From assembly GCF_024227715.1 (NCBI RefSeq), contig NZ_CP100448.1:620001-684000 (forward strand): a DNA stretch of 64,000 nucleotides, read 5' to 3'. Positions 24,885 through 39,847 of this stretch are shown one piece after another. Both the position numbers and the translations under genes were made by a program. This DNA comes from Halomarina litorea (lineage in GTDB: Archaea > Halobacteriota > Halobacteria > Halobacteriales > Haloarculaceae). Position 1 is the stretch's first letter, and each line of letters starts with the position of its first letter. Under the pieces are notes generated by a model. The model was not told the origin of the DNA. It did no database searches and saw only the letters and a program-made list of their open reading frames with translations.

Positions 24885-25637
24885 ATGACACGAACCGCGG
24901 TCATCGCCGGCGTCGGCCCGGGACTCGGGGAGTCGCTCGCCCGTCGCTTCGTCGAGGAGGGGTGTCGGGTGGGGTTGTTCGCCCGGTCGGCGGACTACCT
25001 GGAGGACCTCGCGGACGACCTCGGCGCGGACGCCCTCGCCGTCCCGACGGACCTCACCGACCCCGCCGAGGTCCGACGCGGGTTCGAGGCGGTCCGCGAC
25101 GCCTTCGGCCCCGTCGACGTCCTCGTCAACCACGCGAGCGGTGCCCCGTGGAAGGGGACGATGGAGGTGTCCCCGGAGGCCTTCGAGGACGCCCTGCGGG
25201 TCGGGCCGATGGGTGCGCTCTACTGCTCGCAGGAGGCGGTCAGGGACATGCTGGACAACTACGCCGAGGAAACCTCGGCGAGCGACCAGAACGCGGGGCG
25301 TTCTGGTAGCGAGGGTGGGACGGTCGTCTTCACGGGCGCGACCACCTCCGTCCGGGGCCGTGGCGGTGCCGTCGCCTTCTCGGCGGCGAAGTTCGCCTGT
25401 CGGGGGATGGCCGAGTCGATGGCCCGCGAACTCGGCCCCGAGGGAATCCACGTCGCGCACGTCGTCATCGACGGCCAGATTCTCACCCCGAGTGCGCGCG
25501 AGTCGATGGGCGACCGCGAGGCGGACGCCTACCTCGACCCGGACGAGGTGGCAAGGCAGTACTGGAACCTCGTCGAACAGGACCGGACGGCGTGGACGCT
25601 GGAACTCGACCTCCGGCCGTCCGTCGAGGAGTTCTGA
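24885..25637 (+). CDS. Short-chain dehydrogenase/reductase with catalytic Tyr replaced and an in-frame palindromic insertion
   Basis: The product is 250 aa. The cofactor motif is IAGVGPGLGESLARRF (residues 7-22), and VDVLVNHASGAPWKG (78-91) is the NAG-like motif. The active-site region is VVFTGATTSVRGRGGAVAFS followed by AAK. Ser is present and Lys169 is in place, but the Tyr of YxxxK is Phe165, so classical SDR catalysis would be impaired or altered. Residues ~125-144 (NYAEETSASDQNAGRSGSE) form an insertion not expected between the helix AVRDMLD and the strand GGTVVFTGA. It is encoded by two back-to-back hairpins (25262-25307). No operon partner is evident. Confidence 0.85.
   Translation: MTRTAVIAGVGPGLGESLARRFVEEGCRVGLFARSADYLEDLADDLGADALAVPTDLTDPAEVRRGFEAVRDAFGPVDVLVNHASGAPWKGTMEVSPEAFEDALRVGPMGALYCSQEAVRDMLDNYAEETSASDQNAGRSGSEGGTVVFTGATTSVRGRGGAVAFSAAKFACRGMAESMARELGPEGIHVAHVVIDGQILTPSARESMGDREADAYLDPDEVARQYWNLVEQDRTAWTLELDLRPSVEEF
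25262..25307 (+). repeat. Two adjacent perfect hairpins inside the SDR coding region
   Basis: Hairpin 1: 8-bp arms CGCCGAGG and CCTCGGCG around loop AAA (25262-25280). Hairpin 2: 10-bp arms ACCAGAACGC and GCGTTCTGGT around loop GGG (25285-25307). Together they encode the extra loop of the SDR. Hairpin 2 is close in sequence to the intergenic hairpin at 39686-39706 (CAGAAC/GTTCTG arms, CGCGGRGCG core). Confidence 0.75.
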
Positions 25638-39524: not shown

Positions 39525-39847
39525 GCTGAGCGGTTGGGAAGGGTGGCATAACAGCGTTGTGATTACCCCGCCCCACGTTTTGCTGCACTCGCGGGCGGGC
39601 GGCACGCTTCGCGTTCGCTCAGCGGTCGCCCGCCGGCTCGCTGGCAAAACCTGCATTGCGAGACGCTCCGCGTCTCGCAGGCACCCAGAACCGCGGAGCG
39701 GTTCTGAGAGGACGAAAAACCTCGTCGTTCCCTTCGGTCACTCCTCGGCCCGCTCGCTCGCTTCACTCGCTCGCGGCGGGTCGTAGGTGAAGAACCGCCC
39801 CGCCGACCGCGACCGACCGCCTCCGCACCGCGCCGAACTGTCTTCGT
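39525..39847. other. 323-bp gene-free stretch with three strong hairpins
   Basis: No gene is visible. Hairpin A is nested: GTTTTGC/GCAAAAC (39577-39583, 39644-39650) around GCGGGCG/CGCCCGC (39591-39597, 39627-39633). Hairpin B has 10-bp arms TGCGAGACGC/GCGTCTCGCA (39657-39679, loop TCC). Hairpin C has 9-bp arms CAGAACCGC/GCGGTTCTG (39686-39706, loop GGA). After them comes the repeated 16-mer CGCTCGCTTCACTCGC (39755-39770). Confidence 0.6.
39657..39706. repeat. Pair of palindromic repeats with CGCGGAGCG-type core
   Basis: Two adjacent hairpins, 39657-39679 and 39686-39706. The first has core CGCTCCGCG, the second CGCGGAGCG, which are reverse complements of each other. Hairpin 2 shares CAGAAC/GTTCTG arms with the hairpin inside the SDR gene at 25285-25307. 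Confidence 0.7.

Follow-up and report, generated by a model that had tools for sequence, protein, structure and literature searches.

Two back-to-back hairpins in a haloarchaeal SDR gene, very probably one copy of a short mobile element that enters coding sequence in frame

Introduction

The nearest described haloarchaeal relatives of the element considered here, compared by description, are the palindrome-associated transposable elements (PATEs) of Haloquadratum walsbyi, which are derived from IS605, occur in terminal-only forms of 52 bp and are apparently mobile (PMC3119063, in the part of the paper accessible). Both are haloarchaeal and non-coding, have palindromes near their ends and a link to IS605-type elements, and the length of the terminal-only PATEs, about 50 bp, is similar; with 46–57 bp the element is too short for a transposase, and its palindromes lie close to its ends. 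In the accessible part of PMC3119063 PATEs are described without target duplication, whereas the junctions of the element fit either a 2-bp repeat or a target preference together with a fixed end, and in-frame insertion into genes is not mentioned there for PATEs. PATEs originate from IS605 ends; copies of the element are found beside tnpA and tnpB genes, but one pair of paralogues (L278/L279) records an insertion into TnpB. The SMR-A elements of Haloquadratum are likewise short, often lie in IS605-type elements and have no known mobiliser, but according to the same part of PMC3119063 they measure about 110 bp, carry prominent terminal inverted repeats and preferentially target the palindromes of PATEs and IS605.

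Outside the archaea, the Rickettsia palindromic element (RPE), about 150 bp in length, has in-frame copies in numerous unrelated genes, to each of which it contributes a similar peptide (PMC10969869, in the part accessible). The element resembles it by description in being palindromic and in having in-frame copies in many unrelated genes with a common peptide; it differs in its length, in consisting of two hairpins and in its haloarchaeal hosts. The bacterial REP and REPIN sequences with their RAYT (Y1) enzymes are also short repeated hairpins, some of them paired, and mobilisation in trans is a feature of REPs. REPs, however, are mainly extragenic, and the Pfam profile PF01797 detected no Y1 transposase gene in the genome studied here (G000). 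Palindromic insertion in frame into archaeal genes was not encountered in the open-access literature searched, including a MITE review, two palindrome surveys and the PATE paper as far as accessible, and RPE-like behaviour in archaea is provisionally regarded as new.

The SDR Gene and Its Additional Residues

The window, which is the whole analysed stretch of 64,000 nucleotides, belongs to a haloarchaeal genome of 3.88 Mb. One of its ORFs, encoding 250 amino acids, had been reported in the initial annotation to contain two perfect back-to-back hairpins with about 18 extra residues at their position. The hairpins are there with the arms and loops described (Table 1). Folded as RNA the pair yields −34.2 kcal/mol (z = −6.1), and none of 200 shuffles was equally stable. 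An alignment with orthologues, which had been suggested as a check, was run with 29 sequences 63–79% identical to the window protein. Residues N125–S142 face a single glycine in the nearest orthologue, so that 17 residues are extra and lie on the hairpins; the close haloarchaeal orthologues are devoid of them, and at the insertion point most of the 29 read DMxxx-GGT. In the AlphaFold2 model the stretch comprises the end of a helix (97–133) and a low-confidence loop preceding a strand (146–150), and solved SDRs have a gap at this position.

Table 1. Coordinates of the features in the window
Feature	Position	Strand	Description
SDR gene, host of the element	24885-25637	+	ORF and orthologues; Pfam adh_short, PF00106
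Stretch without counterpart in close orthologues	25257-25310	+	residues N125-S142; protein alignment
Proposed SDR element	25262-25311	+	CG at each end (25262-25263, 25310-25311); 48-nt (16-codon) period; deduced from junctions elsewhere
First SDR hairpin	25262-25280	+	CGCCGAGG-AAA-CCTCGGCG; 8-bp arms, loop AAA, perfect
Linker AGCG	25281-25284	+	common to copy G000:C1:960307 (L038)
Second SDR hairpin, recurrent CAGAAC type	25285-25307	+	ACCAGAACGC-GGG-GCGTTCTGGT; 10-bp arms, loop GGG, perfect
First hairpin of related intergenic pair	39657-39679	+	TGCGAGACGC-TCC-GCGTCTCGCA
Second hairpin of same intergenic pair	39686-39706	+	CAGAACCGC-GGA-GCGGTTCTG

Anatomy and Recurrence of the Element

The element spans about 46–57 bp, nearly all of which is taken up by its two hairpins. 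In oriented copies the first hairpin is usually followed by a linker of 4–7 nt and then by the CAGAAC triloop hairpin. The arms of the first hairpin, 8–11 bp long and usually enclosing a 3-nt loop, differ between copies yet pair. The common form reads CG-TTCACGAGAGC-NNN-GCTCTCGTGA-GCCA-ACCAGAACGC-NNN-GCGTTCTGGT-GA-CG; another common form, which is intergenic, has GCCRGAAATC arms. The SDR copy departs from the common form in its first hairpin and right end and is, judged by its sequence, a diverged subtype closest to L038, an intergenic near twin of the SDR hairpin pair with which it shares a CGAGCGACCAGAAC stretch, the linker and a GGTARCGA right end. A MITE would have terminal inverted repeats related to those of a known transposon; here the ends TTCACGAG and TCACCAG are by eye loosely inverted repeats, and no parent transposon was found for them. 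Derivation of a first-hairpin arm from the target, an idea taken from the DsbA-like site described below, was rejected, the same arms being present at unrelated sites. Two paralogous copies (L043 and L044; G000:C1:2708195 and 2711545) have loops which are exact reverse complements, GTA and TAC, and this suggests loop inversion and copying across the hairpin; in another paralogous pair (L031 and L037; C1:46484 and 921165) the 3-nt hairpin loops differ.

Further genomic copies of the second hairpin had been expected, and the CAGAAC/GTTCTG arms which it was said to share with the hairpin at 39686-39706 occur in both. By pattern search CAGAAC-N1-9-GTTCTG has 20 occurrences in the genome, as compared to 0 for a reversed-pattern control, and the intergenic pair at 39657-39706 has a near-identical counterpart at C1:611691 (L034). 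Of 145 relatives, 30 contain the pattern ACCAGAAC..GTTCTGGT, and its control yields 0 hits. Within the order, a directional form of the hairpin, AACCAGAAC..GTTCTGGTGAC, is present in 72 of the 392 genomes and in 32 of the 95 genera, whereas the 312 genomes of a phylum sample that fall outside the order all lack it. The family was followed by such patterns and not by a covariance model, as a MAFFT alignment misaligned the variable first hairpin; copies devoid of CAGAAC arms are therefore undercounted. One genus (g69, family f4) is rich in copies, three of its genomes (G402, G247, and G202) having 22, 13, and 12 exact ones, and the typical element there is 57 nt long, which is divisible by three.

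Hairpins in general were surveyed in sampled stretches amounting to 400 kb, the rest of the genome being searched by pattern. Those in coding DNA with arms of at least 10 bp match a protein-preserving (synonymous-codon) null with no clear excess, and hairpin pairs in coding DNA number 3 as compared to 1-2 under this null. Intergenic triloop hairpins, on the other hand, amount to 30 versus about 6 under the null, and those with 10-bp arms to 9 versus 0.2. It is by the recurrence of their sequence, and not by hairpin geometry in coding DNA, that the hairpins of the element go beyond chance.

Empty Sites and Junctions

The proposal that the element can enter coding sequence without breaking the frame is borne out by other genes, in which filled and empty sites can be compared base by base. 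In the EndoIII gene of this genome an insert of 57 nt is absent in eight relatives; a DsbA-like gene has an insert of 57 nt absent in four genus-mates, and a thioredoxin reductase (TrxB) gene one of 51 nt absent in a relative with a 98% identical protein. The UspA insert of this genome has 54 nt and reads, with slashes at its ends, ACGGACG/TTCAC...GGTGA/CGGGAGC, as compared to ACCGACGGGAGC in a homologue. Two TnpB paralogues of this genome, L278 (G000:C1:2754006) with the element in its C-terminal codons and L279 (C3:89899) without it, read GCCAGCG/TTCACG...GGGGA/CGACGACTGA and GCCAGCGACGACTAA, respectively. For GlyRS the insert of one Halomarina is absent in the relatives aligning there, with a less clear exact boundary. 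At sites aligned to the base the clean insertions comprise 51–57 nt. TnpB genes from further genomes (L145, L164, L262) carry the element at the site by which the two paralogues differ.

The junctions fit insertion at a YG dinucleotide, mostly CG, which is afterwards present on both sides; the fit of EndoIII needs one later substitution, and the left end in thioredoxin reductase is blurred. The YG at both ends could reflect a true 2-bp duplication or a target preference combined with a fixed element end, both of which fit the sequences. For the SDR gene this model would give GACAACTA-CG-AGGG plus 48 nt, a junction taken over from the other sites because no base-level empty site is available among the orthologues found, the nearest of which is 79% identical. 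At three further loci (L148, L149, L163), which belong to different families (f14 and f1), the element occupies the same conserved site GTGGGACG..TTGAACGGC, and a TnpB-like gene is located near it in L148 and L163.

Copies in Unrelated Genes

Coding copies were called with a home-made codon model. They are located in unrelated ORFs, to which they add about 16–19 residues with a similar peptide. In this genome the hosts are the SDR, EndoIII (TYG[VRESQSDSRANQNAERSGD]GQDAFECLV), UspA (VPTD[VHESEALVSQPEPSRSGD]GSD), and TnpB (SAS[VHETRGLVQPTRTEGSGD]DD-stop). Elsewhere they include GlyRS, AroE, a DsbA-like protein, FAA hydrolase, thioredoxin reductase, glutaredoxin-thioredoxin reductase, an alpha/beta hydrolase, another SDR, a HAD hydrolase with two copies, a Cu-ATPase, and histidine kinases, named by Pfam where scanned and otherwise by eye from sequence. 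The directional pattern defines 70 distinct loci, 17 of which are coding by a strict test, and all 17 are in sense orientation and in the NQN frame. The length is divisible by three in 12 of 14 measurable coding copies and in 23 of 43 of the rest, a group that includes gene-end coding copies missed by the strict test, for example, L150 and L162. Read in the sense frame, the element encodes a hydrophilic peptide; its other readings contain hydrophobic runs (VLV, AFWLA) or a stop. That genes contain one orientation and one frame would most simply mean that harmful orientations and frames have been purged.

In the HAD-type hydrolase mentioned above (L199, G247:C1:1409514-1412540) one of the two in-frame copies has an extra ACCGGAAGCC hairpin with the peptide GNRKPTASGD. 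Another double hairpin, with the different arms GTCGCGCGGC/GCCGCGCGAC and CGCGGAAC/GTTCCGCG, is found in the leucyl-tRNA synthetase gene of this genome (L096:59-104, G000:C1:300059-300104), where it encodes a hydrophilic stretch in the anticodon-binding region; it possibly represents another in-frame element family. A double hairpin in coding DNA at L098 was read as chance.

Origin of the SDR Hairpins

The recurrence with a reversed control of zero, the common order of hairpin, linker, and hairpin, the in-frame copies, the empty sites, and the absence outside the order together argue that the SDR hairpins very probably represent a single copy of a haloarchaeal mobile element which is short, non-autonomous and composed of two hairpins. 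For the SDR itself, the lack of the residues in close orthologues, the linker and right end in common with L038, and the loop position in the model point the same way; the differing first hairpin and right end and the unrelated extra residues of other orthologues in this loop speak against it. The element would have been moved by a transposase supplied in trans, and copies in genes would survive when their length, orientation, and frame give the hydrophilic loop peptide V(H/R/D)ES...(A/G)NQNAxRSGD. Pairing of the arms may persist because mobility requires the hairpin or because copying from arm to arm mends them. The SDR stretch would have arisen by the same insertion route. Of the earlier suggestion of a small mobile palindromic element comparable to REP-like elements or RPEs, recurrence and empty sites uphold the mobile palindromic character and the RPE-like insertion into coding sequence. 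Neither condition named for its refutation held, as the orthologues are devoid of these residues and the hairpin has many further copies. The REP label is not retained, no Y1 gene having been found in the genome, and by sequence or host the element is not an RPE. The chances appear about even that it is an order-wide archaeal counterpart of RPEs, 46–57 bp in length, which is moved by an unrecognised enzyme, repeats a 2-bp YG and has a soluble-linker reading that adds 16–19 residues to conserved, probably essential proteins.

A variant of the mobile-element explanation, with a different origin and mobiliser, takes the element as a PATE in the strict sense, that is, a terminal-only derivative of an IS605-type element moved as single-stranded DNA by a hairpin-recognising Y1 (HUH) TnpA with no true target duplication. 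It can build on the 52-bp terminal-only PATEs of Haloquadratum, for which signs of mobility have been published (PMC3119063, in the part accessible), on double hairpins which adjoin Y1 tnpA genes (L258, L259, L260) and on the 4 of 20 copies in this genome that are at or in tnpB genes. In this genome, however, no PF01797 gene was found, the presence of this gene in many other genomes does not track copy number, and the L278/L279 comparison shows the element as an insertion within TnpB, with a separate terminal hairpin lying downstream of it. We consider this variant tentative and somewhat improbable; IS605-type elements may be the source of the element or only a safe landing place for it. L261 was discarded as a TnpB neighbour, as the gene there is not TnpB.

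The SDR stretch could also be a naturally variable surface loop with GC-rich codons that form hairpins by chance. The SDR loop tolerates insertions generally, since other orthologues have unrelated extra residues there without these hairpins (12 in L005, 9 in L028, and 3 in L003 and L004), and coding hairpins overall are at the level of chance; that the 23-nt hairpin is of the recurrent type and that the pair has its near twin in intergenic L038 nevertheless makes this very unlikely. A regulatory role as a structured RNA or as a transcription terminator, for which the hairpins would have been retained, would suit the intergenic excess of hairpins (30 to 6) and the location of most copies in this genome, which are intergenic and often 40–160 nt from a predicted gene end, but it leaves the clean in-frame insertions with their common linkers and junctions unexplained, purging from genes yields the same intergenic excess, and we regard it as highly improbable. 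Local formation of the hairpins in replication, through template-switch (quasi-palindrome) copying, is scarcely credible: perfect arms and 3-nt loops would be in line with it, and the reversed GTA/TAC loops suggest that such copying acts on these hairpins, but it is largely refuted by recurrence, since unrelated sites and many genera have the CAGAAC hairpin, the linker, and the junctions in common. Removal of the transcribed element, or skipping by the ribosome as in the mitochondrial bypassing elements (byps), which contain hairpins, would agree with stable mRNA hairpins within conserved genes but has hardly any probability, as copies are in frame, stop-free, and always in the same hydrophilic frame, none of which a skipped element would need.

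Significance

In-frame palindromic insertion, of which Rickettsia is the best-known case, is now found across haloarchaea. As haloarchaea can be grown and edited, they offer a tractable system for asking how new segments of proteins arise from mobile DNA, by what means hairpin elements of about 50 bp are moved, and how proteins come to tolerate such inserts. The mobile double-hairpin element would in addition account for odd loop insertions in alignments of haloarchaeal proteins.
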